From the NCBI RefSeq assembly GCF_024704725.1, contig NZ_JALIQS010000003.1, forward strand, positions 310,001 to 374,000: a stretch of 64,000 nt of DNA. The letters are read 5' to 3'. Positions 14,675-47,790 of the stretch are shown in pieces. Both the position numbers and the translations under genes were made by a program. Positions within the stretch are counted from its first letter, which is position 1; every line of letters begins with the position of its first letter. The stretch comes from Shinella sp. CPCC 101442. Its GTDB lineage: Bacteria; Pseudomonadota; Alphaproteobacteria; Rhizobiales; Rhizobiaceae. The notes under the pieces were generated by a model. It did not search any database. It saw only the letters and a list, made by a program, of their open reading frames with translations, and was not told where the DNA came from.

Positions 14675-14681
14675 ACCGATC

Positions 14682-14712: not shown

Positions 14713-14929
14713 CCGCGACCTGAACAAGCGCATCGGGCATCGTTGCCGCCGCGCATCAAGAAACGGCAGAGGTCGCAAACAGCACAGTATCATCGAGTGG
14801 TTCGTGTCATGACGAACCGCAAGCCGGGAAACAGAACAAGAATATCCCTGTGCGCACCGTCTCGTTCGCAATTGCACAAGAATTGCAGTGCGTTGCGAGA
14901 CAATAACTTCCGGTAGAGAGGGGACAAGA

Positions 14930-15841
14930 ATGGCAGGTCTATGTGAATCGTTGCCAGGCTTTCTTTGTAAATTTCCGGCCTTCAGTGACGTCAGCATCCG
15001 TGTAGTCAGAAAAAGTGTCGACGACGGTTTCAAATCGCTCGTTCGAAGCTATGTGAACGCCATCGACGCGATGGTGCAGCCACTGCAATGGTTTCTGAAC
15101 TATCTCGAGCGGCTGTTCGTCAGCTCACCCTGGCCGATTATTCTATTGATCATGCTGGCCATCGTCTATTTCGGCAGCCGCAATATCAGGATCACCATCG
15201 GCACGGCCGTCTCGATGCTTGCCATCGGCCTGCTCGGCCTGTGGAACGACACGATGGTGACGCTCGCCATGGTGACGGTCTGTACGTTCATCGCCATCCT
15301 GATCGGCATTCCGATCGGCATTCTCATGGCCCGGTCCGACCGGGTGCAGGGCATCATCAACCCGATCCTCGACGTGATGCAGACGATGCCGAGCTTCGTC
15401 TACCTCATTCCCGTCGTCATGATCTTCGGCATCGGCAAGGTGCCGGGGCTCATCGCGGTCGTCATCTACGCCGTGCCGCCGATGATCCGCCTCACCAATC
15501 TCGGCATCCGGCTTGTCGACAAGGAAGTTCTCGAGGCGGCCGACGCCTTCGGTTCCTCCGGCTGGCAGAAGCTCAAGAACGTGCAGATGCCGCTGGCGCT
15601 GCCCACCATCATGGCCGGCATCAACCAGACGATCATGATGTCGCTCGCCATGGTCGTGGTCGCCTCCATGGTCGGCGTCGGCGGTCTCGGCAAGAACGTG
15701 CTTCAGGCCATCAACAACCAGTTCTTCACGGTCGGGTTCCTCAACGGGTTCGCGCTCGTGGCCATCGCCATCATTTTCGACCGCACAAGCCAGGCCTATG
15801 GCAAGCGGCTGCAGAAGCATTCGGAGGTAATTCATGGTTAG
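14930..15841 (+). CDS. Glycine betaine/proline-type ABC transporter permease (ProW-like)
   Basis: This inner-membrane subunit of 303 residues has six or so membrane segments. The BPD-transp-1 domain carries the EAA loop ADAFGSSGWQKLKNVQMPLALPTIMAGI near residues 200-228, which contacts the ATPase. An N-terminal amphipathic region (about 50 residues, with LERLFVSSPW) precedes the first helix, as in ProW/OpuAB. The start at 14930 is preceded by GAGGGGAC. Its last 8 nt overlap the start of the ATPase gene. Confidence 0.92.
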   Translation: MAGLCESLPGFLCKFPAFSDVSIRVVRKSVDDGFKSLVRSYVNAIDAMVQPLQWFLNYLERLFVSSPWPIILLIMLAIVYFGSRNIRITIGTAVSMLAIGLLGLWNDTMVTLAMVTVCTFIAILIGIPIGILMARSDRVQGIINPILDVMQTMPSFVYLIPVVMIFGIGKVPGLIAVVIYAVPPMIRLTNLGIRLVDKEVLEAADAFGSSGWQKLKNVQMPLALPTIMAGINQTIMMSLAMVVVASMVGVGGLGKNVLQAINNQFFTVGFLNGFALVAIAIIFDRTSQAYGKRLQKHSEVIHG

Positions 15842-16877
15842 TCATGCAATCGAGGTCCGCAATCTCTACAAGATTTTTGGCCCGCGGGGCGGTGACTATG
15901 TCGATGCGGTGAAGAACGGTCTTGGCAAGGCGGAACTGAACGAGAAATACGGCCACGTTCTCGGCCTGCGCGACATCAACATCTCCATGCCCGCCGGCGG
16001 CATCATGGTGGTGATGGGGCTTTCGGGTTCCGGCAAGTCGACGCTGATCCGCCACATCAACCGCCTGATCGACCCGACCGCCGGCGAAGTGCTCTATGAC
16101 GGCGTCGACGTCTGCAAGATGAGCGAGAACGACCTTCGCGAATTCCGCCGCCACAAGACGGCGATGGTGTTCCAGAAGTTCGCGCTGCTGCCGCATCGCA
16201 CCGTGCTCGAAAACACCGTCTACGGCCTGGAAATCCAGGGCGTGGGCCAGGAAGAGCGCGAGAAGCGGGCAAAGCAGTGGATCGCCCGGGTCGGCCTGTC
16301 CGGCTTCGAGAACCACTATCCGAACCAGCTGTCGGGCGGCATGCAGCAGCGCGTGGGCCTTGCCCGCGCATTGACCAATGACGCCGATATCCTGCTGATG
16401 GACGAAGCCTATTCGGCGCTCGACCCGCTCATCCGCGTCGACATGCAGACCGTGCTTCTCGATCTCCAAAAGGAGCTGAAGAAGACCGTCGTCTTCATCA
16501 CGCACGATCTCGACGAGGCGCTTCGCCTCGGCGACAAGATCGCCATCCTGCGCGACGGCATGGTCGTGCAGCAGGGCACCGGCCAGGAAATCGTGCTCAA
16601 CCCGGCGGACGAGTACATCACGGCCTTCGTGAAGGAAGTGAACCGCGGTCGCGTGGTTAATGTCGAGACGATCATGGCGCCGCTGTCGGGCACTCCCGAG
16701 GGCATGCCGATCGTCAAGGGCACCGTGCTGGAAGCGGCCGCCCGCGCTATGACCTCGGTGAACCAGACGCTCGCCCATGTGGTGGACGAGAACAATCGTC
16801 CGGTGGGTGCGATCAGCCTCAGCGCGATCATCTCCAGCATGGTGACGCCGACGAGCCACGAGGCGAAGGCGGCCTGA
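15834..16877 (+). CDS. Glycine betaine/proline-type ABC transporter ATPase (ProV-like)
   Basis: The 347-residue ATPase has Walker A GLSGSGKST (about residues 62-70), signature LSGGMQQRVGLARAL, Walker B ILLMDEAYSALDP, and the switch His in FITHDLDEALRLGD. The N-terminal extension typical of OpuAA/ProV (IFGPRGGDYVDAVKNG) is present. C-terminal residues beyond 270 form only a short, incomplete CBS-like region (LAHVVDENNRPVGAISL), as in ChoV-type proteins. The start overlaps the permease stop, so translation is coupled. Confidence 0.93.
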   Translation: MVSHAIEVRNLYKIFGPRGGDYVDAVKNGLGKAELNEKYGHVLGLRDINISMPAGGIMVVMGLSGSGKSTLIRHINRLIDPTAGEVLYDGVDVCKMSENDLREFRRHKTAMVFQKFALLPHRTVLENTVYGLEIQGVGQEEREKRAKQWIARVGLSGFENHYPNQLSGGMQQRVGLARALTNDADILLMDEAYSALDPLIRVDMQTVLLDLQKELKKTVVFITHDLDEALRLGDKIAILRDGMVVQQGTGQEIVLNPADEYITAFVKEVNRGRVVNVETIMAPLSGTPEGMPIVKGTVLEAAARAMTSVNQTLAHVVDENNRPVGAISLSAIISSMVTPTSHEAKAA

Positions 16878-17735: not shown

Positions 17736-18752
17736 ATGACCGCCACGAACAAGCTTGCCAACCTGCTCGCCGAAAAGCCCTTCCTGCTTGCCGATGGTGC
17801 AACGGGCACCTCGCTCTTCGCCATGGGCCTGGAAGCTGGCGAAGCGCCGGAGTTGTGGAACGAGGCCAAGCCCGAAAACATCACGAAACTGCACCAGGAC
17901 TTCGTCGATGCCGGAGCGGACATCATCCTTACCAACACGTTCGGCGGCACGCGCCACCGCCTGAAGCTGCACCACGCCCAGGACCGCGTCTTCGACCTCA
18001 ACAAGACGGCCGCCGAGATCGCCCGCGCCGTCGCCGACAAGGCTGAGCGCAACGTCATCGTCGCCGGCTCCGTCGGCCCGACCGGCGAACTGCTCGTGCC
18101 GCTTGGCGCGCTGACCTATGACGACGCCGTCGCCGCCTTCGTCGAGCAGATCGAAGGCCTCAAGGCCGGCGGCGCCGACGTCGCCTGGATCGAAACCATG
18201 TCCTCGCCCGAGGAAATCCGTGCCGCCGCGGAAGCCGCCACCAAGGTCGGCATGCCCTTCGTCTATACCGGCTCGTTCGATACGGCCGGCAAGACCATGA
18301 TGGGCCTTCATCCGCGCGACATCCATGGCGTTGCCGGCGATATCGGTGCGGGACCTCTGGCCGTTGGCGCCAATTGCGGCGTCGGCGCATCCGACATCCT
18401 CTCCTCGCTGCTCGACATGACGGGTGCCAACCCGTCCGCAACCGTGGTCGTCAAGGGCAATTGCGGCATTCCGGAATTTCGCGGCTCGGAAATCTATTAT
18501 TCCGGCACGCCGCCATTGATGGCCGAATATGCCCGTCTCGCCCGCGATGCCGGCGCGCGCATCATCGGCGGCTGCTGCGGCACGTCCTGCGAGCACCTCG
18601 CCGCCATGCGCGTCGCGCTCGATGCGCACGAGCCGCGTGACCGCCCCACCCTCGAAGCCATTGTTGAAAAGATCGGCCCGCTGCGCAACAAGACGGCCGA
18701 CGAAAGCGCCGCCCAGCCGACCCGCGAACGCGGCGGCCGCCGCCGCGGCTAA
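17736..18752 (+). CDS. bmt: Betaine-homocysteine S-methyltransferase
   Basis: Bmt transfers a methyl group from glycine betaine to homocysteine, giving dimethylglycine and methionine. The 338-residue protein is a homocysteine S-methyltransferase-domain barrel (PF02574). Substrate motif ADGATGTSLFAMGL is at residues 19-32. Zinc ligands are Cys in GANCGVG (about residue 213) and the paired cysteines of IIGGCCGTSCEH (about residues 280-281). The C-terminus is a short Arg/Gly-rich tail (TRERGGRRRG). Its position near a betaine-type transporter and the corrinoid methyltransferase cluster supports betaine rather than S-methylmethionine as donor, but that remains inference. Confidence 0.92.
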   Translation: MTATNKLANLLAEKPFLLADGATGTSLFAMGLEAGEAPELWNEAKPENITKLHQDFVDAGADIILTNTFGGTRHRLKLHHAQDRVFDLNKTAAEIARAVADKAERNVIVAGSVGPTGELLVPLGALTYDDAVAAFVEQIEGLKAGGADVAWIETMSSPEEIRAAAEAATKVGMPFVYTGSFDTAGKTMMGLHPRDIHGVAGDIGAGPLAVGANCGVGASDILSSLLDMTGANPSATVVVKGNCGIPEFRGSEIYYSGTPPLMAEYARLARDAGARIIGGCCGTSCEHLAAMRVALDAHEPRDRPTLEAIVEKIGPLRNKTADESAAQPTRERGGRRRG

Positions 18753-26323: not shown

Positions 26324-27016
26324 TCAAAGCGACAGCGCCGCCATGTGGAAGCGCAGTTGTGCGTCGTTGTAGCGGTAGGTTGCACCGACCGGGCAGGCCG
26401 TGCGGGCGAAGCAGCCCTTGGCCATGCAGCCGCCCTGTCCTTCCGCCGTGCGAAGGTGCGTGCGACAGACAGGCACGTCGAATTTTTCCGGGCGCACCGC
26501 GCTGACGGGACAGGCGGCGAGGCAGGGCTTGTCCGGACAACTATCACAGGGATGCGCGGCACGGACTGCCGGTTCGTCAACGATCGGTTCGGCAAAACCG
26601 AGGGCGCCGCGGTAGCCGTGCCACAGGCCGTGCACAGGGTGGATGAGGATACCGAGCGGCGAGGCTTTGAGGCCTTCGGCGCGCATGGCCCATTGCTGGA
26701 AAGGCTGCCAGGGCGGATCGGAAGGAAACCACACCGCTGCCTCCACCGTGGTGGCGATGGGGCGGATGACGGCTTTCGACCAGGTGTCGAGCGGGTCACT
26801 GCCGCCGTGGTCCGATTGGGTTTCCCGCCAGTGGGAAAAAGCCGACCACAGAGAGCTGCCGATATTACCGACAAGGGCGACGCTCCTTGCGGAACGGCCA
26901 TCAGTCAAACGCGGGGCCGCCTCACCTTCCGTGAAATTCAAAAAACCGCGCAAAAAAAGACCGTGCGGCTCGAGAGCCGCACGGATGTTTTCTAGATCGG
27001 GGGAACGCGCCCTCAC
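26324..27016 (-). CDS. 4Fe-4S ferredoxin-type protein coupled to the MttB-family gene
   Basis: A 230-residue protein with a domain of unknown type at the N-terminus and a cysteine-rich C-terminal half. A ferredoxin-like motif CDSCPDKPCLAACPVSAV lies at about residues 155-172 and a second cluster, CMAKGCFARTACPVG, at about 195-209. No membrane segment is seen. The GTG start at 27016 has AGGGGA upstream and overlaps a TGA (GTGA), so it is translationally coupled to the frame before it. It lies directly downstream of the MttB-family gene on the same strand. A role in supplying electrons for corrinoid reactivation is attractive but inferred from position only. Confidence 0.85.
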   Translation of the reverse strand: MRARSPDLENIRAALEPHGLFLRGFLNFTEGEAAPRLTDGRSARSVALVGNIGSSLWSAFSHWRETQSDHGGSDPLDTWSKAVIRPIATTVEAAVWFPSDPPWQPFQQWAMRAEGLKASPLGILIHPVHGLWHGYRGALGFAEPIVDEPAVRAAHPCDSCPDKPCLAACPVSAVRPEKFDVPVCRTHLRTAEGQGGCMAKGCFARTACPVGATYRYNDAQLRFHMAALSL

Positions 27017-27123
27017 TTGGTCACGTCCCCTTTGAGTTCGTAGTGGGGACGCCAGACTTCCTTCTGGATCATGTCCGCCACCCGTATTGCTCCGCCTTGC
27101 TCCCTGGCGCGATCGGGACCCTT
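27013..27123 (-). other. Open 36-codon extension in frame with the MttB-family gene
   Basis: After the MttB TGA at 27124-27126 the same frame stays open for 36 codons and ends in a TGA (27013-27015) that overlaps the GTG of the ferredoxin-type gene. The extension reads KGPDRAREQGGAIRVAD, then MIQKEVWRPHYELKGDVTK. It could be translated from an internal ATG at 27072 (19 residues), as a readthrough tail, or not at all. The GTGA overlap is what suggests translation. Confidence 0.4.
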
Positions 27124-28707
27124 TCAGGTGAAGGCGTCGGGCATCGAGTCCTTGCGCTCCTTGATATAGGCGAGCAAGGCGTCGTCGATGGCCGGATCGA
27201 GATAGGGCGCCTCGTAGTGTTCCAACCAGGTGCGGCAGAGCGCATTGGCACGGTCTTCGATGCGCTTCTGTCCCTCGATCTCCCACTGCTCGAACGAGTT
27301 ATTGTCGGCGAGCGGCGAGCGGTAGAAGGCGGTCTGGAAGTTGGCCTGGGTATGGGCGCAGCCGAGATAGTGGCTGCCCGGACCGACTTCACGGATGGCG
27401 TCGAGCGCCTGCGCGTTCTCCGAAAGGTCGATGCCCTCGGCGAACTTCTGCTGCATGCCGAGCTGGTCCTGGTCGATCATGAACTTCTCGTAGGAGGCGA
27501 CGAGGCCGCCTTCCAGCCAACCGGCGGCGTGCAGCACGAAGTTCGTGCCGGCCAAGAGCGTCATGTTCAGCGTGTTGGCCGATTCATGGGCGGCCTGCGC
27601 GTCCGGGATTTTTGAGCCACAGAGCGAACCGCCGGTACGGAACGGAATGCCGAGACGGCGGGCGAGCTGTGCCGCGCCATAGGAGACGAGCGACGGCTCC
27701 GGCGAACCGAAGGTCGGCGCGCCCGACTGCATGGAGATCGAGGCCGCGAAGGTGCCGAACAGCACCGGCGCACCCTTGCGGATGAGCTGGGTGAAGGCGG
27801 CACCGGCGAGAACTTCGGCAAGGATCTGCGTCAGCGTGCCGGCGACCGTGACCGGGCTCATGGCGCCGGACAGGATGAACGGCGAGACCACGCAGGCCTG
27901 GTTATGACGGGCATAGACCTTCAGCGCACCCACCATGGTCTCGTCGAAGACCATCGGCGAATTGGCGTTGATGAGGTTCATCATGACGGTGTTGTTTTCG
28001 ACGAACTCGTCGCCGAAAACTAGCTTGGCCATCGCGATCGAGTCTTCCGCGCGTTCCGGCGCGGTGACGGAGCCCATGAACGGCTTGTCGGAATATTTCA
28101 GGTGGGTGTAGACCATGTCCAGGTGACGCTTGTTCACGGGGACATCGACCGGCTCGCAGACCGTACCGCCGGACGAATGCATCGACGGCGCCATATAGGC
28201 GAGCTTCACGAAATTGCGAAAGTCCTCGATCGTCGCATAGCGTCTGACGCCATCGAGGTCACGCACGAAGGGAGGGCCGTAGACCGGTACGAAGACGGTC
28301 GCCTTGCCACCAATGTGCACGCTGCGCTCGGGATTGCGGGCATGCCAGGTGAACTGCGATGGTGCGGTCTTCAGGAGTTCACGGCAGAGCCCCTTGGGGA
28401 AATGCACGCGCTCGCCGCGCACATCCGCGCCCGCCTCGCGCCAGAGCTGGAGCGCTTCGGCATCGTCACGGAATTCGATGCCGATCTCTTCCAGAATGCG
28501 ATCCGCATTGGCTTCGATAAGCTGCAGGCCCTCTTCGTCGAGGACTTCATATTCCTTGATCTTGCGGGTGATGTAGGGGAGCGACGGACCCGGGCCGCCG
28601 CCGGTGCGCGATGCGCGCCGTGCGGCCGCCCCGCGACCCTCGCGCGAACGGCGACCACCGCCTTCACCGGCGCCCTCGCCTGCCACCTGCTGAATATCGT
28701 CGCTCAT
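27124..28707 (-). CDS. MttB-family corrinoid-dependent methyltransferase (non-pyrrolysine)
   Basis: A 527-residue member of the trimethylamine methyltransferase superfamily (PF06253). It should move a methyl group from a quaternary amine to the corrinoid protein. Motifs include VFVPVYGPPFVRDLDG, YATIEDFRNFVKLAYMAPSM, a mid-protein NLINANSPMVFDETMVGALK, and PFRTGGSLCGSK. The frame has no internal TAG, so it lacks pyrrolysine and belongs to the MtgB/MtpB-like branch, whose known members use glycine betaine, proline betaine or carnitine. The first 40 residues are an Arg/Gly/Ala-rich tail (EGGGRRSREGRGAAARRASR) unlike the catalytic domain. It is divergent from the corrinoid-protein gene. The exact substrate is unknown. 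Confidence 0.93.
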   Translation of the reverse strand: MSDDIQQVAGEGAGEGGGRRSREGRGAAARRASRTGGGPGPSLPYITRKIKEYEVLDEEGLQLIEANADRILEEIGIEFRDDAEALQLWREAGADVRGERVHFPKGLCRELLKTAPSQFTWHARNPERSVHIGGKATVFVPVYGPPFVRDLDGVRRYATIEDFRNFVKLAYMAPSMHSSGGTVCEPVDVPVNKRHLDMVYTHLKYSDKPFMGSVTAPERAEDSIAMAKLVFGDEFVENNTVMMNLINANSPMVFDETMVGALKVYARHNQACVVSPFILSGAMSPVTVAGTLTQILAEVLAGAAFTQLIRKGAPVLFGTFAASISMQSGAPTFGSPEPSLVSYGAAQLARRLGIPFRTGGSLCGSKIPDAQAAHESANTLNMTLLAGTNFVLHAAGWLEGGLVASYEKFMIDQDQLGMQQKFAEGIDLSENAQALDAIREVGPGSHYLGCAHTQANFQTAFYRSPLADNNSFEQWEIEGQKRIEDRANALCRTWLEHYEAPYLDPAIDDALLAYIKERKDSMPDAFT

Positions 28708-29075
28708 GATCCGTCTTTCCTTGTTATTCCGATGCTGGAAGGCACCTTTGATCTTTGTTCCGGCGCCCGAACCGCGCCTCTTTTTCTATGCTAGCAAGCC
28801 GCGAAGACGGGGCGGTTCTCAATGCGCCAAGCGGTGGCGCACGCGGGATACCGGCCCGGCCGCGACTATAGCGGGATTGCGACGGACATCGTAGCGGCAT
28901 TGTCTTGTTTGCACTGTCAATTCACGGCTTTACGGGCTATTCATGCAAGAAGCGGGAGGCGGGTCGCTTTTCGCCATATGCGACGTCGCTTTCAAAATCA
29001 GGTTCGCGCCAGAGGAAGGCTATTCCTTGTGATGAGAGCCTGCCGCCGCAGCGCCACTGGAGACGAGGAACCAAT
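28708..29075. other. Divergent control region between the MttB-family and corrinoid-protein genes
   Basis: About 370 nt with no gene. It must hold both promoters of the methyl-transfer cassette. I see no B12 box, no terminator and no clear palindrome. An AT-richer patch with TTGTCTTGTTTGCACTGTC at about 28902-28921 is the best place to look for a regulator site. The GbdR-like activator at 40562 is the most likely controller. Confidence 0.5.
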
Positions 29076-29771
29076 ATGTCTGACGACGAAATCATTCTCG
29101 CCGATCTCTCCGACGAAGAGCTTGTGCAGCAGATGCACGACGACCTCTACGACGGCCTCAAGGAAGAGATCGAAGAGGGCACCAACATCCTGCTCGCGCG
29201 CGGCTGGGTCCCCTACGACGTGCTCACCCAGGCGCTCGTCGAAGGCATGCGCATCGTCGGCGTCGACTTCCGCGACGGCATCCTCTTCGTTCCCGAAGTG
29301 CTGCTTTCGGCCAACGCCATGAAGGCCGGCATGTTCATCCTGCGCCCGCTGCTTGCCGCCACCGGCGCACCGAAGCAGGGCAAGATGGTCATCGGCACCG
29401 TCAAGGGCGACATCCACGACATCGGCAAGAACCTCGTCGGCATGATGATGGAAGGCGCTGGCTTCGACGTCATCGACCTCGGCATCAACAACCCGGTCGA
29501 AAACTACCTGGAAGCCATCGAGCGCGAACAGCCCGACATTCTCGGCATGTCCGCCCTGCTGACGACGACCATGCCCTACATGAAGGTGGTCATCGACACG
29601 ATGAAGGAAAAGGGCCTGCGCGACGATTACGTCGTTCTCGTCGGCGGCGCGCCGCTGAACGAGGAATTCGGCAAGGCTGTCGGTGCCGACGCCTACTGCC
29701 GCGACGCGGCCGTCGCCGTGGAAACCGCCAAGGAATTCATGAAGCGCAAGCACAACATGCTCGCCGGCTGA
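29076..29771 (+). CDS. Corrinoid (B12-binding) methyl-carrier protein
   Basis: A 231-residue methyltransferase corrinoid protein of the MtaC/MttC/MtgC type. An N-terminal B12-binding-2 helical cap (residues 1-100, with ILLARGWVPYDVLTQALVEG and LFVPEVLLSANAM) is followed by the Rossmann B12 domain with the base-off signature D112-x-H114-x-x-G117 (GDIHDIGKN); His114 should ligate cobalt. Later motifs are GFDVIDLGINNP and MSALLTTTM. The first 35 residues are strikingly acidic (MSDDEIILADLSDEELVQQM). The ATG at 29076 has GACGAGGA upstream. Confidence 0.97.
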   Translation: MSDDEIILADLSDEELVQQMHDDLYDGLKEEIEEGTNILLARGWVPYDVLTQALVEGMRIVGVDFRDGILFVPEVLLSANAMKAGMFILRPLLAATGAPKQGKMVIGTVKGDIHDIGKNLVGMMMEGAGFDVIDLGINNPVENYLEAIEREQPDILGMSALLTTTMPYMKVVIDTMKEKGLRDDYVVLVGGAPLNEEFGKAVGADAYCRDAAVAVETAKEFMKRKHNMLAG

Positions 29772-29780
29772 TCATGACAT

Positions 29781-29813
29781 TCGACGGCGCCGGTCTTGAA
29801 TCGGCGCCGTCGA
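29781..29813. terminator. Strong hairpin after the corrinoid-protein gene
   Basis: TCGACGGCGCCG and CGGCGCCGTCGA form a perfect 12-bp stem with a 9-nt loop. There is no T-run on the plus strand, so it may stabilise 3' ends or work with Rho rather than terminate alone. It lies between convergent genes. Confidence 0.6.
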
Positions 29814-29822
29814 CCTACGACC

Positions 29823-29981
29823 TTAGTTTGCAGCTCTTTCGACGCTGCGGCCGGCATCCTGCGTCGCATCTACGGCGTTGGCGGTATCCCGACCCATGCC
29901 GCGAATGGTGTTGCCGCAGGCGCTGAGCGCGACAAGCGCGGCGAGAACGATACTGATCTTGGTCAGGTGTGTCCCAGTCAT
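29823..29981 (-). CDS. Entericidin-like lipoprotein (52 residues)
   Basis: The peptide MTGTHLTKISIVLAALVALS is followed by ACGNTIRGMGRDTANAVDAT. It has a positively charged start, a hydrophobic core and a lipobox L-S-A-C, then the entericidin EcnA/EcnB family pattern NTxxGxGxD. The mature lipopeptide would be about 31 residues, membrane-anchored. It is encoded on the minus strand inside the methyl-transfer cluster and its ATG lies 17 nt from the divergent DUF1638 start. Confidence 0.82.
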   Translation of the reverse strand: MTGTHLTKISIVLAALVALSACGNTIRGMGRDTANAVDATQDAGRSVERAAN

Positions 29982-29998
29982 GGTTGGAGTCCCTCTTC

Positions 29999-30640
29999 AT
30001 GGATATGGTTGACGCAGAACTTCAGCTTGGAAGTCTGAACGCTGAACGCACGAAAGCCGAAAAAGTTCGCGTGATCGCCTGCGGCGCGATTGCCCGCGAG
30101 GTCATCGCCATCCGCGATACGAACGGCCTTGCCCATATCGACCTCCAGTGTCTCCCCGCCATCTGGCACGCCCATCCCGAAAAAATCGCGCCCGGTGTCG
30201 AACAGGCAATCGCCGAGGCGCGGGCTGAGGGCTTTTCACGCATCTTCGTCGGCTATGCGGATTGCGGCACGGGCGGCCTGCTCGATCGGGTCTGCGAACG
30301 CGAGGGCATCGAGCGGATCGCCGGGCCGCACTGTTACTCCTTCTTCGCCGGCAACGCGGCCTTCGCTGCCAAGGATGACGACGTCACCTCGTTCTTCCTC
30401 ACGGACTTCCTCGCCCGCCAGTTCCGCGCCTTCGTCATCGAGCCGCTTGGCCTCGACCGGCACCCGCAGCTGAAGGACATGTATTTCGGCAACTACACCA
30501 AGGTCGTCTATCTCTCGCAAATCGAGGACGAGGGCCTGCAGCAGAAGGCCAGGGAAGCCGCCGACTATCTCGGCCTCGCCTACGAATACCGCTATACCGG
30601 CTATGGCGATCTGACGGGCGCGTTGCTTCAGGTGCGCTGA
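29999..30640 (+). CDS. DUF1638 protein of the methyl-transfer cluster
   Basis: A 213-residue soluble protein of the DUF1638 family (PF07796), often found beside MttB-type methyltransferases in anaerobes and proteobacteria. Visible conserved elements are VRVIACGAIAREVIAI, DLQCLPAIWHAHPEKI, IFVGYADCGTGG and GPHCYSFFAG, with cysteines and histidines that could bind a metal. The biochemical role is unknown. The start ATG at 29999 has GGAG about 9 nt upstream. Confidence 0.85.
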   Translation: MDMVDAELQLGSLNAERTKAEKVRVIACGAIAREVIAIRDTNGLAHIDLQCLPAIWHAHPEKIAPGVEQAIAEARAEGFSRIFVGYADCGTGGLLDRVCEREGIERIAGPHCYSFFAGNAAFAAKDDDVTSFFLTDFLARQFRAFVIEPLGLDRHPQLKDMYFGNYTKVVYLSQIEDEGLQQKAREAADYLGLAYEYRYTGYGDLTGALLQVR

Positions 30641-30740
30641 CTAACCAATCCTTAGCCTTGCCCGCGAAATCCACCGCCGCAGTTACCGCTTCCTAAGGCC
30701 TGCCGGCAATGATGCCGCCAGATATCGGCGGGGCCTGCAC

Positions 30741-31523
30741 ATGACGACTTTCGAGACGCGGACGGAAACGGTGGCGATGCTGATCCAGCCCGGCCACAAT
30801 CCGGAAGTCATCGTCAATGCCGTGAGAGCCATCTTCCCGAACCTCGTCGTCATCGAGGAACAGCCCGAATCGAAAAAGCTCTTCATTCTCAGGCGGGCGA
30901 AGAAACTCGGCTGGCCGCAGGCGCTCGGCCAGCTCGCAACCATGGTCGTCTCCAAATACGGAAAGCGCTTCACGGTGAAGCGCGCTGCGGAAATCCGTGA
31001 ACAATTCGGGGTAAGCGGCACTATCGACCCGACAATTCCCCGGGTCGCCATCTCCTCCGCAAATAGCCCGGACCTTCTGAAGGCGCTCGGCGACATCCGC
31101 CCGGCCGCGCTGCTCCTCTTCAGCTGCCGTATGCTGAAGGCCTACACGCTTGCCGCCATTCCCTGCCCCGTCCTCAATTTCCACGCCGGCATCATCCCGC
31201 AATATCGCGGCCTGCAGGGCGGCTATTGGTCGCGCATCCTGTCGGATGAGGAGAATTTCGGCGGCACGGTTCACCTTGTCGACGCCGGCGTCGATACCGG
31301 CGACACGCTCTACCAGCAGCGCACGAAACCTTCCAAACGCGACACGATGCACACCTATCCGCTGCTCCAGACGGCCGTCTCGACAGGCATCATCGTCAAG
31401 GCACTGGAAGATGCCGTCACCGGAAACCTCAAGCCCTTGAAAATAGCGGCGCCGTCGCGGCAATGGTATCATCCGCCGATCTGGACCTGGCTCTGGAACG
31501 GCGTGACCCGCGGCATCTGGTAA
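30741..31523 (+). CDS. Formyltransferase-like protein (PurN/Fmt fold)
   Basis: A 260-residue protein whose central part is a formyl transferase N domain: ALLLFSCRMLK, LNFHAGIIPQYRGLQGG (His and the loop that binds 10-formyl-THF, about residues 146-161) and GGTVHLVDAGVDTGDTL (Asp in GVDTGD matches the catalytic Asp of GART/Fmt). The N-terminal 100 residues are not the standard nucleotide part. In this cluster it may make or break 10-formyl-THF, or formylate something else. It is separated by 100 nt from the DUF1638 gene. Confidence 0.8.
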   Translation: MTTFETRTETVAMLIQPGHNPEVIVNAVRAIFPNLVVIEEQPESKKLFILRRAKKLGWPQALGQLATMVVSKYGKRFTVKRAAEIREQFGVSGTIDPTIPRVAISSANSPDLLKALGDIRPAALLLFSCRMLKAYTLAAIPCPVLNFHAGIIPQYRGLQGGYWSRILSDEENFGGTVHLVDAGVDTGDTLYQQRTKPSKRDTMHTYPLLQTAVSTGIIVKALEDAVTGNLKPLKIAAPSRQWYHPPIWTWLWNGVTRGIW

Positions 31524-31631
31524 ATCCTCTGGACAGTCAAATCCCGCGTCGTTTTTGAGCATGGGGCAGTCGTGGCGAGTGAAGCCCGCGACGTCGCCAC
31601 AAAGCATTGTCAATGCGAGGAGAATTTTGAC

Positions 31632-31934
31632 ATGGCAGACCGCATCATCGTCTACTGGCGCGACATTCCCGCCCAGGTGATCATCAAGAAGGGCCGCACG
31701 ACGGCCAAGCGGGAACTCTCGCTGCGCTTCACCGAGGCGATCGACATGTGCGCCATGCGCACGGGGGCGGCGGAAACGGACGACTATCTCGCCGAATGGC
31801 GCAAGGCCGAGCCGACGCCGGTTTCCGACGACCTCGAAGCGGAAGCGGACAAGGCCGCAGCCGAACTCGAATCCGCCTATGACCGCGAACGGCTCGTCGC
31901 GCTCGTCAAGGCCGGAGGCCGCGACAATGGCTGA
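31632..31934 (+). CDS. Virulence-factor-domain small protein
   Basis: A 100-residue protein with the PF13769-type domain annotated as conserved virulence factor: IIVYWRDIPAQVIIKKGR, then RELSLRFTEAIDMCAMRTG. The name reflects an old annotation; no virulence role should be read from it here. The gene overlaps metV by 8 nt (ATGG...TGA) and is clearly part of the same operon. The function in folate or methyl transfer is unknown. Confidence 0.8.
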   Translation: MADRIIVYWRDIPAQVIIKKGRTTAKRELSLRFTEAIDMCAMRTGAAETDDYLAEWRKAEPTPVSDDLEAEADKAAAELESAYDRERLVALVKAGGRDNG

Positions 31935-32514
31935 TGCCGTCCAAAAGCCCGGCAACGCCGCGCCCGCCAAGAAGGCCGCCACCGGCGCCTTCACCCCGGC
32001 GGGCGTTTCGCCGAACCGCCGCTCACGCCACAAATACACGATCCGCCTTTGGGCCGTGCGCAATTCCCGCTTCTTCGAGTGGTTCTACCACCGCTTCGCC
32101 GAAGTCTTCCTTCTCCTCCATCCCGTCTGGAAGCTTTTGGGTTACCAGCGCGTCGAGCGTCCCATCACCTTCGTCGAAAAGCACGTGAAGGGCTTTCTCT
32201 TCGACTGTCGCATGTGCGGCCAGTGCGCGCTGTCGTCCACGGGCATGTCCTGCCCGATGAACTGTCCCAAACAGCTTCGCAACGGCCCCTGCGGCGGCGT
32301 TCGCGCCAACGGAAATTGCGAAGTGGAGCCGGACATGCCCTGCGTCTGGGTCCAGGCGTGGAAGGGCTCCCAGAACATGGTCAAGGGAGATGCCATCATG
32401 AACGTGCAGAAGCCGGTGAACCAGTCGCTGCGCGAAACCTCCTCCTGGCTGCGCGTGACGGCCGAAGCCGCAGCGGCCAGGGAAGCTGCCGCTGCCGCCG
32501 GAAAGGACGCCTGA
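31927..32514 (+). CDS. metV: MetV-type zinc/iron-binding partner of methylene-THF reductase
   Basis: A 195-residue protein of the MTHFR C-terminal type (PF12225). Eight cysteines lie at residues 94, 97, 100, 109, 113, 122, 131 and 139 (CRMCGQCALSSTGMSC, then PCGGVRANGNCEVEP), as in MetV, the small subunit of MetVF in acetogens. It should help MetF in methylene-THF/methyl-THF interconversion. The N-terminal 40 residues are basic, and an amphipathic helix (FFEWFYHRFAEVFLLLHPVW) follows. It lies between the virulence-factor-domain gene and metF. Confidence 0.88.
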   Translation: MADAVQKPGNAAPAKKAATGAFTPAGVSPNRRSRHKYTIRLWAVRNSRFFEWFYHRFAEVFLLLHPVWKLLGYQRVERPITFVEKHVKGFLFDCRMCGQCALSSTGMSCPMNCPKQLRNGPCGGVRANGNCEVEPDMPCVWVQAWKGSQNMVKGDAIMNVQKPVNQSLRETSSWLRVTAEAAAAREAAAAAGKDA

Positions 32515-32517
32515 GCC

Positions 32518-33612
32518 ATGGCGAATATCGACGAAAACCCGCTTGGCCCCCACCTTCCGCTCGATCCCCTGCCCGGCCACTCCTCGCTCGGCCGGCTGGA
32601 GCGCGTGCTGCGCCGCGGCGAATTTGCCGTTACGACGGAACTGAACCCACCCGATAGCGCGAACCCGGAAGACGTCTACGAACGCGCCGCGATCTTCGAC
32701 GGCTGGGTGGACGGCATCAACGCCGTCGATGCTTCCGGCGCCAACTGCCACATGTCCTCCGTCGGCATCTGCGCGCTTCTGACCCGCATGGGCTATGCAC
32801 CGATCATGCAGATCGCCTGCCGCGACAAGAACCGCATCGCCATCCAGGGCGACGTGCTGGGTGCCGCCGCCATGGGCGTGTGCAACATCATGTGCCTCAC
32901 CGGCGACGGCGTGCAGGCCGGCGACCAGCCGGGTGCGAAGCCCGTTTTCGACCTCGACTGCATGTCGCTGCTCGAAACCGTGCGCATCATGCGCGACAAT
33001 TCGAAGTTCCTGTCAGGCCGCAAGCTGTCAACGCCACCGAAGGTCTTTTTGGGTGCCGCGATCAACCCCTTTGCGCCGCCCTACGATTTCCGCCCCTACC
33101 GCCTTGCCAAAAAGATCGAGGCGGGCGCGCAGTTCGTCCAGAGCCAGTATTGCTTCGACGTTCCGATGTTCCGGGAATATATGAAGAAGGTGCGCGACCT
33201 CGGCCTGCACGAAAAGTGCTATATCCTCGTCGGCGTCGGCCCGATGGCATCCGCCAAGACCGCCAAGTGGATCCGCTCCAACGTGCCGGGCATCCACATT
33301 CCCGACTCCATCATTGCCCGTCTGGAAGGCGCGCAGGACCAGAAGAAGGAAGGCAAGCAACTCTGCATCGACATCATCAACGAGGTGAAGGAGATCGAGG
33401 GCGTTTCCGGCATTCACGTCATGGCTTACCGCCAGGAAGAATATGTCGCGGAAATGGTGCATGATTCCGGCGTACTGAAGGGTCGCCAGCCCTGGAAGCG
33501 CGAGCCGAACCCCGTCGACCAGATGGTTGCCGAGCGCATCGAGGCGGCCCGTAGCGGCCAGCAGCAGGACCAGCAGCAGATGGCGGAGAAAGCCGCTCAT
33601 CACCCCCATTGA
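32518..33612 (+). CDS. metF: Methylenetetrahydrofolate reductase MetF
   Basis: A 364-residue FAD-dependent MTHFR. It shows FAVTTELNPPDSANP (substrate strand with the Glu that protonates N5), VDGINAVDA, IMQIACRDKNR, NIMCLTGDG, FLGAAINPFAP and GAQFVQSQYCFDV. It starts 4 nt after metV, on an operon-style overlap. In a methyl-oxidising pathway it would run in the oxidative direction, from methyl-THF to methylene-THF. The C-terminal 20 residues are a Gln-rich tail. Confidence 0.93.
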   Translation: MANIDENPLGPHLPLDPLPGHSSLGRLERVLRRGEFAVTTELNPPDSANPEDVYERAAIFDGWVDGINAVDASGANCHMSSVGICALLTRMGYAPIMQIACRDKNRIAIQGDVLGAAAMGVCNIMCLTGDGVQAGDQPGAKPVFDLDCMSLLETVRIMRDNSKFLSGRKLSTPPKVFLGAAINPFAPPYDFRPYRLAKKIEAGAQFVQSQYCFDVPMFREYMKKVRDLGLHEKCYILVGVGPMASAKTAKWIRSNVPGIHIPDSIIARLEGAQDQKKEGKQLCIDIINEVKEIEGVSGIHVMAYRQEEYVAEMVHDSGVLKGRQPWKREPNPVDQMVAERIEAARSGQQQDQQQMAEKAAHHPH

Positions 33613-33703
33613 TTTCGCCTGCCGGCAAGCGCCGGCATGCCGCTTGTAACACCGGAAATCGCGCGCTAGATCAGCCTGAGCGCCCTGCCCCAGAGGACTT
33701 TAT

Positions 33704-34669
33704 ATGACCCGCACCATCGTCGCTTCGGCCACCCGCGAAATCGTCATCGGTTTCGACCAGCCCTTCTGCGTCATCGGCGAGCGCATCAACCCGACCGGCC
33801 GCAAGAAGCTGGCCGCGGAAATGCAGGCCGGTAATTTCGACACCGTCATCAAGGACGCACTGGAGCAGGTCGCCGCCGGCGCCACGATGCTTGACATCAA
33901 CGCGGGCGTGACCTCCGTCAACCCGAACGAGACCGAGCCGGGCCTGCTCGTCCAGACGCTCGAAATCGTCCAGGGCCTCGTTGATATCCCGCTCGCCATC
34001 GACAGTTCCGTGACGGCCGCCATCGAGGCCGGCCTGAGGGTCGCCAAGGGCCGCCCGCTGGTCAACTCCGTCACAGGCGAAGAGGAAAAGCTCGAAGCGA
34101 TCCTGCCGCTCGTCAAGAAGTACAACGTACCCGTCGTCGCCATCTCCAACGACGAGACGGGCATTTCGATGGACCCGGACGTCCGTTTTGCCGTCGCCAA
34201 GAAGATCGTCGAGCGCGCCGCCGACTATGGTATCCCGGCGTATGACATCATCGTCGACCCGCTCGTCATGCCGATCGGCGCGTTGGGCGATGCCGGCCGC
34301 CAGGTCTTCCAGCTGCTTTACCGTCTGCGCAACGAGCTGAAGGTCAACACGACCTGCGGCCTTTCCAATATCTCCTTCGGCCTGCCGCACCGCCATGGCA
34401 TCAATGCCGGCTTCATTCCGATGGTCATCGGCGCCGGCATGACGTCGGCTATCATGAACCCCTGCCGCCCGCAGGAAATGGAGGCCGTGCGCGCCGCCAA
34501 CGTGCTGAACGGCACCGACGCGAATTGCTCGAACTGGATCATGACCTATCGCGACCACAAGCCCGCCGAAGGCGGCGCCGTTAACGCAGCCGCAGCGGCC
34601 CCCGCTGCCGCCGGCGGTCGCCGTGGTGGCCGCGCAGCCCGTGCCGGTGCCGGCGCGAAGGTGGAATAG
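33704..34669 (+). CDS. Methyl-THF:corrinoid-protein methyltransferase (pterin-binding)
   Basis: A 321-residue pterin-binding domain protein (PF00809) of the MtvA/MtgA/AcsE type. Motifs include FCVIGERINPTGRKKLAAEM (pterin-binding), MLDINAGV, IPLAIDSS, LVNSVTGEEEKL and YDIIVDPLVMPIG. It would move the methyl from the corrinoid protein to tetrahydrofolate. After residue 285 the sequence becomes an Ala/Gly/Arg-rich tail (AAAAPAAAGGRRGGRAARAG) not found in typical homologs. It follows metF by 91 nt with a small hairpin (TGCCGGC/GCCGGCA) in the gap. Confidence 0.93.
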   Translation: MTRTIVASATREIVIGFDQPFCVIGERINPTGRKKLAAEMQAGNFDTVIKDALEQVAAGATMLDINAGVTSVNPNETEPGLLVQTLEIVQGLVDIPLAIDSSVTAAIEAGLRVAKGRPLVNSVTGEEEKLEAILPLVKKYNVPVVAISNDETGISMDPDVRFAVAKKIVERAADYGIPAYDIIVDPLVMPIGALGDAGRQVFQLLYRLRNELKVNTTCGLSNISFGLPHRHGINAGFIPMVIGAGMTSAIMNPCRPQEMEAVRAANVLNGTDANCSNWIMTYRDHKPAEGGAVNAAAAAPAAAGGRRGGRAARAGAGAKVE

Positions 34670-34670
34670 C

Positions 34671-34994
34671 GTGGCCGGCGGGCGTCAGTTTCGCCGCGAC
34701 GCCTTCAGCCTCTGGCTGGAGGCGCCGCTTGTCATCGCCATGCGCTGCCAGGAGATGGGTTTCGCGGCGATGACGGGTTCGACACAAAACACGACCGAGA
34801 TGACCCGAATGGTCACCGAAAAGATGGCTGCCGCGACGGAGAGCGTCGTGGCGGCCAATTTTGCTTTGGCGAAGGCCATGATGACGGCATCGCCTCCGGA
34901 ACGAACCGCGCGCGCCGTGACCGAGGCCGCGTTGAAACCCTATGGCAAGCGCGTGCGCAGCAATGTGCGCCGTCTCGCCAAGAAGAAGAGCTGA
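34671..34994 (+). CDS. Small unknown protein in the methyl-transfer operon
   Basis: A 107-residue basic protein with GTG start at 34671 immediately after the preceding stop (AATAGC, then GTG), so it is translated with it. It is helical (ATESVVAANFALAKAMM) with a lysine/arginine-rich C-terminus (VRRLAKKKS). There is no recognised family, signal or membrane segment; its composition is phasin-like. Its place between two core cluster genes suggests a structural or adaptor role. Confidence 0.65.
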   Translation: MAGGRQFRRDAFSLWLEAPLVIAMRCQEMGFAAMTGSTQNTTEMTRMVTEKMAAATESVVAANFALAKAMMTASPPERTARAVTEAALKPYGKRVRSNVRRLAKKKS

Positions 34995-35027
34995 GGCGGC
35001 CACGCCGCCAGTGGAAAGAACGATCCG

Positions 35028-37100
35028 ATGCGCATTGAAGGTGAGAGCGAGACCAATATGACGGAAGCTTCGGCAAAGGAACCGCTGGTCCTCTTCATGC
35101 CCTCCGGCAAGCGCGGCCGCTTCCCGGCCGGCACACCCGTTCTCGAAGCCGCGCGAAAACTCGGCGTCTATGTCGAAAGCGTCTGTGGCGGTCGCGCGAC
35201 GTGCGGGCGCTGTCAGATCGAGGTGCAGGAAGGCAACTTCGCCAAGCACAAGATCGTCTCCTCACTCGCCCACATCTCTGAAAAGGGTCCGAAGGAAGAG
35301 CGCTACGAAAAGATCCGCGGCCTGCCGGATGGGCGCCGCCTCTCCTGTTCCGCCCTGGTCCTCGGCGACCTCGTCGTCGACGTGCCGCAGGACACCGTCA
35401 TCAACGCGCAGGTCGTGCGCAAGGCGGCGACGGACCGCGTGATCGAACGCAACGCCGCCGTCCAGCTCTGCTATGTCGAGGTGGACGAGCCCGACATGCA
35501 CAAGCCGCTCGGCGACCTCGACCGCCTGAAGGTGATGCTCGAAAAGGACTGGGGCTGGAAAGACCTGCTGATCGCGCCGCACCTCATTCCGCAGGTGCAG
35601 TCGATCCTGCGCAAGGGCAACTGGGGCGTCACCGCCGCGATCCACCGCGACATGGACAGTTCGCGTCCCTTCATCGTCGCCCTCTATCCGGGTCTCAAGA
35701 ACGAGGCCTACGGCATCGCCTGCGATATCGGCTCGACGACCATCGCCATGCATCTCGTCTCGCTGCTGTCGGGCCGTATCGTCGGCTCCTCGGGCACCTC
35801 GAACCCGCAGATCCGCTTCGGCGAAGACCTGATGAGCCGTGTCTCCTATGTCATGATGAACCCGGACGGCCGGGAAGCCATGACCAAGGCGGTGCGCGAA
35901 GCCGTCAATAGCCTGATCGGCAAGGTCTGCGCCGAGGGCGAGGTCGACCGGCACGACATTCTCGACATGGTCTTCGTCGCCAACCCCATCATGCACCACC
36001 TCTTCCTCGGCATCGACCCGACGGAACTCGGCCAGGCACCGTTCGCGCTCGCCGTTTCCGGTGCCCTGCAATACTGGGCGCATGAACTCGATATCGACGT
36101 GAACCGTGGCGCGCGCCTCTATACGCTGCCCTGCATCGCCGGCCATGTTGGCGCCGATGCCGCGGGGGCAACGCTTGCAGAAGGCCCCTACCGGCAGGAT
36201 CGCATGATGCTGCTCGTCGATGTCGGCACCAATGCGGAAATCGTGCTCGGGAACAAGGACCGCGTCGTCGCCGCGTCCTCACCGACGGGACCGGCTTTCG
36301 AAGGCGCCGAAATCTCCTCCGGCCAACGCGCCGCTCCCGGCGCCATCGAGCGCGTACGCATCGACGCGCAGACGCTCGAGCCGAAATTCCGCGTCATCGG
36401 CGTAGACAAATGGTCTGATGAAGAGGGCTTTGCCGAACAGGCGGCCAGCGTCGGCGTCACCGGCATCTGCGGCTCGGCGATCATCGAAGTCGTCGCGGAA
36501 ATGTATCTCGCCGGCCTAATCTCCGAGGACGGTGTCGTCGATGGCGCGATGGCCGAGCGCAGTGCCCGCGTCCTGCAGAACGGCCGTACCTTCTCCTACC
36601 TGCTGCATGACGGCGAGCAGCGCATCACGGTCACGCAGAACGACATCCGCGCCATCCAGCTGGCCAAGTCCGCGCTCTATGCCGGCATCAAGCTGCTCAT
36701 GGAAAAACAAGGCATCGACCACGTCGACACGATCCGCTTTGCCGGCGCCTTCGGCTCGTTCATCGACCCGAAATACGCCATGGTGCTCGGCCTCATTCCG
36801 GATTGCGATCTCAACGAGGTGAAGGCCGTGGGCAATGCCGCCGGCACCGGCGCGCTGATGGCGCTGCTCAACCGCGACCATCGCCGCGAGATCGAAAAGA
36901 CCGTCGCCCATATCGAGAAGATCGAGACGGCGCTGGAGCCCAACTTCCAGCAGCTCTTCGTCAACGCCATGGCGCTGCCGAACAAGGTCGATCCCTTCCC
37001 CGAACTCGCCAAGGTCGTCACCCTGCCGGAGCGCAAGGTGCTGTCCGACGATGGCGGCGGTGAAGGTGGCGGCCGCCGCAGACGCCGCAGCCGGGAGTAG
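35028..37100 (+). CDS. RACo/RamA-type reductive activator of corrinoid proteins (ASKHA, 2Fe-2S)
   Basis: A 690-residue protein. An N-terminal 2Fe-2S ferredoxin domain has cysteines at residues 53, 59, 62 and 107 (CGGRATCGRC, then SCSAL). A linker follows, and a large ASKHA ATPase part (PF14574 and related) has ACDIGSTTIAMHLV (about 240), MLLVDVGTNAEIVL, SPTGPAFEGAEISSGQRA and FAGAFGSFIDPKYAMVLGL. It should reduce Co(II) back to Co(I) at the expense of ATP. The C-terminus is a Gly/Arg-rich tail (GGGEGGGRRRRRSRE). A second in-frame ATG at 35058 is possible; 35028 is used because it is the first. Confidence 0.94.
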   Translation: MRIEGESETNMTEASAKEPLVLFMPSGKRGRFPAGTPVLEAARKLGVYVESVCGGRATCGRCQIEVQEGNFAKHKIVSSLAHISEKGPKEERYEKIRGLPDGRRLSCSALVLGDLVVDVPQDTVINAQVVRKAATDRVIERNAAVQLCYVEVDEPDMHKPLGDLDRLKVMLEKDWGWKDLLIAPHLIPQVQSILRKGNWGVTAAIHRDMDSSRPFIVALYPGLKNEAYGIACDIGSTTIAMHLVSLLSGRIVGSSGTSNPQIRFGEDLMSRVSYVMMNPDGREAMTKAVREAVNSLIGKVCAEGEVDRHDILDMVFVANPIMHHLFLGIDPTELGQAPFALAVSGALQYWAHELDIDVNRGARLYTLPCIAGHVGADAAGATLAEGPYRQDRMMLLVDVGTNAEIVLGNKDRVVAASSPTGPAFEGAEISSGQRAAPGAIERVRIDAQTLEPKFRVIGVDKWSDEEGFAEQAASVGVTGICGSAIIEVVAEMYLAGLISEDGVVDGAMAERSARVLQNGRTFSYLLHDGEQRITVTQNDIRAIQLAKSALYAGIKLLMEKQGIDHVDTIRFAGAFGSFIDPKYAMVLGLIPDCDLNEVKAVGNAAGTGALMALLNRDHRREIEKTVAHIEKIETALEPNFQQLFVNAMALPNKVDPFPELAKVVTLPERKVLSDDGGGEGGGRRRRRSRE

Positions 37101-40561: not shown

Positions 40562-41581
40562 ATGGACACAACGATGAACAAGCAAAACGTCAAGAAGCGC
40601 TCTCTCGTTTTCTTCCTCGTGCCCAACTTCTCCATGCTGCCCTTTTCGGCGGCGATCGAGACGCTGCGCATCGCCAACCGCATGCTCGGCTACGAGGCCT
40701 ATACGTGGCGTCTTTCCTCCACGGACGGCCAGCAGGTTCTCTCCTCCAGCGGCATCGGCATCGAGGTGAACTCCTCGCTCGCCGACGAGCGCAAATATCT
40801 CGGCGGCGAGAGCCGACCCTCCATGGTGCTCGTCTGTTCGGGCATTTATGTCGAGGACTTCTCCAACAAGTCCGTCAATGCCTGGCTGCGCGAAGTCTAT
40901 AACCGCGGCATCGCGGTCGGCTCGCTCTGTACCGGCGCCCATGTGCTCGCCCAGGCGGGCCTGCTCTCGGGCAAGCGCTGCGCCATCCACTGGGAGAACC
41001 TCCCCGGTTTCGCCGAAGCCTATCCGCAGGCCGACGTCTATGCCGACCTCTACGAAATCGACAGCAATATCTACACCTGCGCCGGCGGCACCGCCTCGCT
41101 GGACATGATGCTGAACCTGATCGACCAGGATTTTGGCGAAAACCTCGTCAACCGCGTCTGCGAACAGGCCCTCACCGACCGCGTGCGTGGCCCGCACGAC
41201 CGCCAGCGCCTGCCGTTGCGCGCCCGCCTTGGGGTCCAAAACGCCAAGGTGCTGTCGATCATCGAACTGATGGAAGGTAATCTCTCCGAGCCGCTGTCGC
41301 TTTTGGAGATTGCCGACAGTGCCGATCTCTCGCGCCGCCAGATCGAGCGCCTGTTCCGCCAGGAGATGGGCCGTTCGCCGGCCCGCTACTATCTCGAAAT
41401 CCGCCTCGACCGGGCGCGGCACCTGCTCGTTCAGTCCTCCATGCCGGTGGTGGAGGTGGCGGTCGCCTGCGGCTTCGTCTCCGCCTCGCACTTTTCCAAG
41501 TGCTACCGCGAACTCTACAACCGCTCGCCCCAGCAGGAGCGTGCCGAGCGCAAGCTGACCCTGTCAGCCATCGCACGCTAG
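40562..41581 (+). CDS. GlxA-family GATase1-AraC regulator (GbdR/CdhR-like)
   Basis: A 339-residue regulator with an N-terminal DJ-1/PfpI-type domain (LVPNFSMLPFSAAIETLRIA, and GSLCTGAHVLAQAGLLSGKR) and a C-terminal AraC HTH pair (LLEIADSADLSRRQIERLFR and VAVACGFVSASHFSKCYREL). GbdR and CdhR of Pseudomonas, which respond to glycine betaine/dimethylglycine and carnitine, share this architecture. It is 3.5 kb from the methyl-transfer operon, so control of the cassette is plausible. The binding site is not identified. Confidence 0.9.
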   Translation: MDTTMNKQNVKKRSLVFFLVPNFSMLPFSAAIETLRIANRMLGYEAYTWRLSSTDGQQVLSSSGIGIEVNSSLADERKYLGGESRPSMVLVCSGIYVEDFSNKSVNAWLREVYNRGIAVGSLCTGAHVLAQAGLLSGKRCAIHWENLPGFAEAYPQADVYADLYEIDSNIYTCAGGTASLDMMLNLIDQDFGENLVNRVCEQALTDRVRGPHDRQRLPLRARLGVQNAKVLSIIELMEGNLSEPLSLLEIADSADLSRRQIERLFRQEMGRSPARYYLEIRLDRARHLLVQSSMPVVEVAVACGFVSASHFSKCYRELYNRSPQQERAERKLTLSAIAR

Positions 41582-47653: not shown

Positions 47654-47790
47654 GCTTCTTCACCTGCGAATATGGTAGGGCGGCCGGGCGTGGCAAGGGG
47701 CGGCGTTAGCAAAGCATTTCCCCTGTTCATGAGCACCGCTTTTACCGCGCCTACGCTAGGCTTTACGGCGAAATCGGGGTGGGATGCTCC

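Follow-up and report, generated by a model that had tools for sequence, protein, structure and literature searches.

A corrinoid-dependent route for methylated osmolytes has recently been described in aerobes. According to the main text of Mausz et al. (PNAS 2025; PMC12478193), mtgC and mtgD mutants of Ruegeria pomeroyi can no longer grow on glycine betaine and are auxotrophic for methionine. N-osmolytes increased the levels of two pfam06253 proteins, a MetF paralog, RamA and a DUF1638 protein in the same organism, and the proteomics associated growth on choline and carnitine, as well as on glycine betaine, with the two pfam06253 proteins (PMC12478193). In Sinorhizobium meliloti, MtgBCDE, two reductive modules and a cobalamin operon are described there as co-located (PMC12478193). 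Price et al. (2018), in the text of PMC5764234, reported that in Phaeobacter inhibens the split methionine synthase requires a RamA-like and a DUF1638 protein, and the S. meliloti DUF1638 protein SMc04333 is listed in proteome data in the text of PMC12542648. Here we analyzed a 64,000-bp stretch of Shinella sp. CPCC 101442 (contig NZ_JALIQS010000003.1, positions 310,001 to 374,000; the window) that carries a cassette of this kind at window positions 26324..37100. The preliminary description of this DNA had stated that no detailed account of such a cassette in an aerobe was known; this was wrong, as the text of PMC12478193 presents both the R. pomeroyi mutants and the S. meliloti gene set. The core of the cassette was already described in 2025, and the window holds a rhizobial instance of that system.

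Profile searches of the window proteins with Pfam and NCBIfam models, with curated cut-offs as quoted for each match, found all genes of the cassette in place and uninterrupted, with profile scores far above chance; every component listed in the preliminary description was matched by a profile or a motif. The MttB superfamily methyltransferase, of the MtgB type (27124..28707, minus strand), matched PF06253 with 776.6 bits across profile positions 3-500 of 500, and the domain is therefore full-length. Its open frame of 527 codons ends in TGA and has no in-frame TAG, as had been claimed, and it scored 288 bits against the pyrrolysine MttB model TIGR02369, under the cut-off of 525. The corrinoid protein MtgC (29073..29771, plus strand, as are all cassette genes below except that for the 4Fe-4S protein) carries PF02607 and PF02310, with a B12 cap, and the DxHxxG motif in the form DIHDIG at residue 113. 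The pterin-binding methyl-tetrahydrofolate (methyl-THF):corrinoid methyltransferase, of the MtgD/MtgA type (33704..34669; PF00809, 96 bits), reached 395.7 bits with the methyl-THF:corrinoid/iron-sulfur model NF005719 and passed its cut-off of 259. Upstream of this MtgD gene lie VirF, a small PF13769 'Virulence_fact' protein (31632..31934; 92.1 bits), a MetV-type subunit (DUF5981; 31927..32514; PF12225, 96.1 bits; eight Cys) and a MetF of the MetVF type (32518..33612; PF02219, 113.2 bits). The start of MetV overlaps the end of VirF by 8 bp and only 3 bp separate MetV from MetF, so the three genes very likely form one transcript. The juxtaposition of PF02219 and PF12225 with its Cys motifs predicts a MetVF activity.

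The cassette also encodes proteins for which roles in cobalamin reactivation or electron supply may be proposed. The RACo/RamA-like reductive activator, with 2Fe-2S and ASKHA parts (35058..37100), matched PF14574, PF17651, PF17650 and PF00111; its C-terminal domain scored 298 bits, the 2Fe-2S domain has the motif C43-x5-C-x2-C, and the linker and middle domains were matched as well. Identity with AcsV itself was ruled out by a score of 390.9 bits against the AcsV cut-off of 800. The DUF1638 protein (29969..30640, true start possibly later; PF07796, 93.3 bits) is a probable B12-reactivation partner. Its Cys at model residues 11, 34, 72 and 95, together with histidines, are invariant across 28 aligned related rows, suggesting a possible metal or cluster site, and its structure model had a pLDDT (predicted local distance difference test) of 90. 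The 4Fe-4S protein (26324 to ~26944, start codon uncertain, minus strand) was assigned by visual inspection of its translation, which shows the Cys motifs CDSCPDKPCLAACP and GGCMAKGCFARTACP; Pfam and NCBIfam searches returned no match for it, and it is a candidate electron donor. Beside its gene lies a terminator-like stem at 26961-26984, which is weak evidence given that the terminator scan found 16 against 10.7 expected; the promoter scan (1 found, 1.8 expected) was uninformative. The remaining gene encodes a formyltransferase-like protein (30741..31523; PF00551, 39.9 bits). The coordinates given here include revised starts for MtgC (probably 29073), VirF (31632), MetV (31927) and RACo (35058). 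An RNA family scan of the window at gathering threshold found no RNA element in the cassette; one tRNA and a cobalamin riboswitch were the only window RNAs.

Comparison with published systems showed what is shared. The text of PMC12478193 gives the R. pomeroyi and S. meliloti system as a pfam06253 MtgB, pfam02310 MtgC, pfam00809 MtgD, pfam02574 MtgE, RamA-like activator and DUF1638 protein, all of which have counterparts in the window, and co-location of the set with cob genes is common to S. meliloti and the window. R. pomeroyi differs in two respects: a MetF2 is named there, whereas the methylenetetrahydrofolate reductase (MTHFR) of the window is a two-part MetV and MetF, and it is described as lacking metH, whereas the window genome has a MetH-type frame. 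The main text of PMC12478193 contains none of the terms 'virulence', 'formyltransferase', 'ferredoxin' and 'metV'; the genes may be drawn in its figures or supplement. With the split methionine synthase of P. inhibens, as presented in the text of PMC5764234, the locus shares the MtgC, MtgD and MtgE modules, the RamA-like protein and DUF1638; MttB lies outside that account, and P. inhibens lacks MetH while the window genome seems to have it. The MtgB/MtgC/MtgA system of Desulfitobacterium hafniense has the same three-step logic, but in an anaerobe. The window MttB is 44% identical to structure 2qne (206 of 469 aligned residues; 418 bits), the D. hafniense glycine betaine methyltransferase MtgB according to the text of PMC9842639, and it scored 1076 bits against structure 4yyc. 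The acetogen MetVF reductase likewise pairs MetF with an Fe-S protein, MetV (PF12225), as a subunit of its own. Acetogens run MetVF in the reducing direction, whereas in the aerobe studied here methyl-THF would be oxidized.

To examine conservation of the locus, named genomes were scanned with the window MttB. At least 591 relatives were confirmed and the best 80 were kept (L005-L084); these loci are the closest of those relatives, selected by their MttB, and with a flank of 10 kb and the occurrence of contig ends the counts are lower bounds. S. medicae (L029) is among them and S. meliloti is not. The window MttB shares 98% identity with its counterparts in Shinella sp. WSJ-2 and SUS2, and the host genome measures 6.1 Mb. 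Analysis of the 80 loci by tblastn revealed MttB in 80 (by construction), MtgC and DUF1638 in 79 each, the 4Fe-4S protein in 78, VirF in 75, MtgD in 74, MtgE and RACo in 69 each, MetV in 59 and MetF in 58. The formyltransferase-like gene was found in 50 of the 80 and is therefore a variable passenger. The relative order of the detected parts was constant, and MttB was divergent from and adjacent to mtgC in 78 loci, a count to be read with the selection by MttB in mind. At L047, a LysR match lies between MtgC and MttB. Across the family, MttB was detected in 241 of 327 genomes, a count that concerns MttB and not the completeness of the cassette.

VirF followed MttB closely across genomes. Co-occurrence was counted in a class sample of 142 genomes from 140 genera (listed carriers each with their own family label), a phylum sample of 249 genomes and a family sample of 327, with some genomes common to the three. 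In the class, PF13769 was present in 26 genomes, MttB in 30, DUF1638 in 25 and DUF5981 in 12; all 26 VirF genomes had MttB (Fisher p = 1.4e-24, kinship ignored) and 23 had DUF1638. The class genomes with MttB and without VirF were G064 (68% complete), G071 (82%), G127 (74%) and G077 (95%, MttB in pieces). In the phylum, VirF occurred in 23 genomes and MttB in 24, with all 23 in common and a fragment of 73 model positions (G220) as the odd one. Twenty-two of these 23 carriers belong to the class of the window (12 to family f24 and 8 to the window's own family) and only G218 lies outside it; the association is mainly alphaproteobacterial. DUF1638, present in 39 of the 249 phylum genomes, was less specific than VirF. 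Among the 327 family genomes, 238 had VirF, 241 had MttB, 236 had both and 84 had neither; G428 and G571 had VirF without detected MttB, and G378, G419, G523, G614 and G623 had MttB without VirF, four of these five being less than 90% complete.

The position of VirF was also conserved. In 37 stretches from class genomes, chosen around matches to PF13769, DUF5981, DUF1638 or MttB, tblastn recovered VirF in 24, and in 22 of these it lay within ~1 kb of MtgC, DUF1638, MtgD, MetV or RACo; in 16 stretches it followed DUF1638 at a distance of at most ~110 bp. The exceptions were L141, on a short contig, and L164, while in L142 a contig-edge match to the hidden Markov model was not recovered by tblastn. 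An alignment of 25 VirF sequences showed W9, D11-I-P, Q15, L29, R32-F33, D38, A41 and Y52-L53 in every row, with the conserved motif W-(R/K)-D-I-P-x-Q-V, and contained no Cys or His column conserved at 90% or more. The fold model was of middling quality and structure comparison gave no informative match. In a control set of 14 genomes, Methanosarcina acetivorans, the sole methanogen, had MttB and DUF1638 with no match to PF13769, and Bacillus subtilis had PF13769 with no MttB found. VirF is therefore not intrinsic to MttB chemistry, and a single methanogen is thin ground for linking it to oxygen. No role in virulence was deduced from the Pfam name of the domain, 'Virulence factor'. On the strength of the association we propose that VirF is a dedicated accessory of the cassette. 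No report linking a PF13769 protein to MttB systems was found in open-licence texts, a search that left figures, supplements and subscription papers outside.

The segment between VirF and MtgD was more variable. MetV and MetF occupy this slot in most of the 80 loci; in 16, VirF and MtgD were present and MetF was missing between them. Twelve of these 16 have only 50-109 bp in the slot, and four have ~910 bp with one frame of 289-306 codons. Slot variants were seen in loci and stretches including L070, L072, L076, L082, L144, L150, L155 and L163. Six single slot genes, two from the 80 loci and four from the class stretches, were scanned with PF02219 (cut-off 24). Four passed at low scores (25.9 to 38.5) and those of L144 and L150 failed. 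The L144 slot protein was 46% identical to that of L150 and 37% identical to the PF02219-passing protein of L163, and the latter had almost no similarity to the window MetF. The class stretch L143 has 1.1 kb separating VirF from MtgD, and a search of this segment for an MTHFR-like frame beginning with ATG gave none. In L145 (G034) and L175 (G064), two MetF-type genes flank MetV, the order in L145 being VirF-MetF-MetV-MetF. Occupation of one slot by two unlike MTHFR-type proteins, or by none, fits a methyl-THF oxidation step that is a separable module. As far as the open-licence literature tells, this exchange is unreported.

Genes neighboring the cassette bear on its substrate and products. 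The preliminary description had suggested that the cassette competes with or complements a betaine-homocysteine methyltransferase (BHMT) called Bmt. The protein in question (17736..18752, plus strand; PF02574, 213.9 bits; GGCCG motif) scored 141 bits against the homocysteine domain of MetH (1q7m) compared with 54 bits against BHMT, and its top solved relative is MetH. In S. meliloti, the text of PMC12478193 argues that 'Bmt' is MtgE, which takes its methyl group from MtgC and is missing the betaine-binding residues. The scores speak against close kinship with BHMT; with this reanalysis the idea of a competitor was rejected, and the protein is most likely the MtgE homocysteine-binding module of a split methionine synthase that shares MtgC and MtgD with the cassette. 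An ATP-binding cassette (ABC) transporter on the plus strand ends ~860 bp upstream of MtgE and comprises an OpuAC glycine-betaine-type substrate-binding protein (13643..14674; PF04069, 191.9 bits; only 35.8 bits against the choline-binding model, cut-off 379), a betaine/choline-type permease (14888..15841; PF00528; ChoW-type model 271 bits with cut-off 363, ProW 258.5 with cut-off 439) and a ProV-family ATPase (15834..16877; TIGR01186, 358.4 bits, above the cut-off of 326.6). These scores resolve the transporter no further than to the betaine/proline/choline family. On the other side of the cassette lies a GbdR-like AraC regulator with a DJ-1/PfpI domain (40562..41581, plus strand; Pfam; NF052371, 354.5 bits, under the cut-off of 480). 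The claim that the organism has CobN-type B12 synthesis was supported by the gene for CobN of the oxygen-dependent pathway (1776..5537, minus strand; PF02514, 1266 bits), and the cobalamin riboswitch lies near the cob genes (8395-8760, minus strand; RNA scan, gathering threshold).

Two further genes of the window were recorded. A PLP (pyridoxal phosphate)-dependent aminotransferase-like enzyme (19275-20642, minus strand) lies between MtgE and the cassette; its top NCBIfam models (aminotransferase, guanitoxin-type cyclodehydratase and capreomycidine synthase) all scored under their cut-offs. Beyond the cassette, a protein with RTX repeats and a serralysin C-terminal-type domain is encoded at 47779-49182 (plus strand).

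Taken together, the cassette is probably the version of the aerobic MtgBCD(E) system found in rhizobia, with glycine betaine as its most likely substrate. Glycine betaine is the likeliest substrate in this genome because of the likeness of MtgB to 2qne and 4yyc, the betaine-type transporter, the GbdR-like regulator and CobN. Several findings weigh against this reading. The top NCBIfam model for MtgC, NF047996 (MtgC), gave 213 bits against a cut-off of 370, and MetF is missing from the 16 loci described above. The genome has three additional MttB genes, four in total, and the paralog on contig C2 (L093, C2:855000-872000) scored 413 bits against 2qne, near the 418 bits of the cassette MttB. A tree of 34 MttB rows (30 different; 2qne the sole characterised row; long branches flagged) placed the window gene inside a 29-row group with support of 96/86, the next fork having 82/92. 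The C2 paralog fell inside the same group, beside the family f24 MttBs (81/95, long branch), and could be their true counterpart; it may be this paralog, rather than the cassette MttB, that demethylates glycine betaine. A GbcAB-like pair, made up of a Rieske oxygenase and a reductase (L096, C2:803000-819000), scored 512.4 bits against the GbcA cut-off of 670 and 383.5 bits against the GbcB cut-off of 500, both below, and is a possible alternative oxygenase for betaine or another quaternary amine. These genes, together with the family-level placement of the transporter, allow a different account in which the cassette acts on proline betaine, carnitine, choline or a related osmolyte, and the paralog or the GbcAB-like pair handles glycine betaine. 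We consider it improbable. Eleven MttBs lie in class stretches that also carry other parts of the cassette; nine of them join the group of the window gene and two (L156 and L173) fall outside it. The GbdR-like regulator is nearby, and the R. pomeroyi proteomics in the text of PMC12478193 link two pfam06253 proteins to glycine betaine as well as to choline and carnitine. The separation of cassette and other MttBs is not clean, and the tree leaves the choice of glycine betaine paralog unsettled. The fourth MttB, a distant paralog (L095, C3:592000-608000), lies beside two demethylase-like proteins of 815-816 amino acids with flavin adenine dinucleotide (FAD) and GCV_T domains and likewise weighs against a firm substrate assignment.

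Two further alternatives concern the purpose of the set and the place of VirF in it. The set could be mainly a B12-dependent split methionine synthase (MtgCDE) in which MetVF works in the reducing direction and MttB is secondary. MtgE is indeed nearby, in 69 of the 80 loci, and the P. inhibens genetics were first recognised as methionine synthesis according to the text of PMC5764234. However, the genome has an open frame of 1281 codons with the MetH activation domain PF02965 (in a scan of that domain alone), MttB is divergent beside mtgC in nearly all of the loci picked through it, and a betaine-type transporter and GbdR-like regulator lie near the cassette, and this account appears very unlikely. 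The same frame is also a point against our preferred reading, as it may render the methionine role of the cassette redundant; R. pomeroyi and P. inhibens are without metH in the text of PMC12478193. For VirF, we see about an even chance that it is needed for function and has escaped recognition as a third accessory, after RACo and DUF1638, of the aerobic corrinoid methyl-transfer and split methionine synthase system, perhaps the one that enables work in oxygen. Its association with the cluster could instead reflect operon hitch-hiking by a protein that belongs to another function, as might be suggested by PF13769 in B. subtilis, by the uninformative fold model and by VirF in the fairly complete genomes G428 (98%) and G571 (91%) that have no detected MttB. 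We regard hitch-hiking as rather doubtful: VirF tracks MttB across many families and inside one family, and it lies near cassette genes in 22 of 24 class stretches, also where MetF is gone.

The MtgBCD(E) reading would operate as follows. Betaine would enter through the ABC transporter (13643-16877), and MtgB (27124-28707) would move a methyl group of the quaternary amine, likely that of glycine betaine, onto the cob(I)alamin of MtgC (29073-29771). MtgD (33704-34669) would pass the methyl group from MtgC to tetrahydrofolate, and MetV and MetF (31927-33612) would convert methyl-THF to methylene-THF, feeding one-carbon oxidation or biosynthesis. MtgC and MtgD running in reverse with MtgE (17736-18752), which would draw on methyl-MtgC, would yield methionine. 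These steps, from uptake to MtgE, are proposed because of homology and the published relative; the genes, their order, their conservation and their co-occurrence were observed here, and the need for MtgC and MtgD in glycine betaine growth and methionine synthesis comes from the genetics of that relative. The preliminary description had proposed corrinoid-dependent demethylation of a quaternary amine that feeds the folate pool, which the part list supports; for this genome we infer the substrate and the direction of methyl transfer. Cobalamin that becomes oxidised to Co(II) may be reduced again by RACo and DUF1638, for which the 4Fe-4S protein is one putative electron carrier, and VirF may assist at MtgC or MtgD. 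Both of these last steps are conjectural, with genetic support from P. inhibens for RACo and DUF1638.

The cassette exemplifies an already published pathway by which aerobes use methylated osmolytes, and MttB genes are common in the family to which the window belongs. The exchange of MetV and MetF for another MTHFR-like protein offers a way to test which electron acceptor serves methyl-THF oxidation. If the proposed role of VirF is true, a protein with the Pfam name 'Virulence factor' would be a component of B12-dependent methyl transfer, and it might partly explain how aerobes carry out cob(I)alamin chemistry despite its sensitivity to oxygen.

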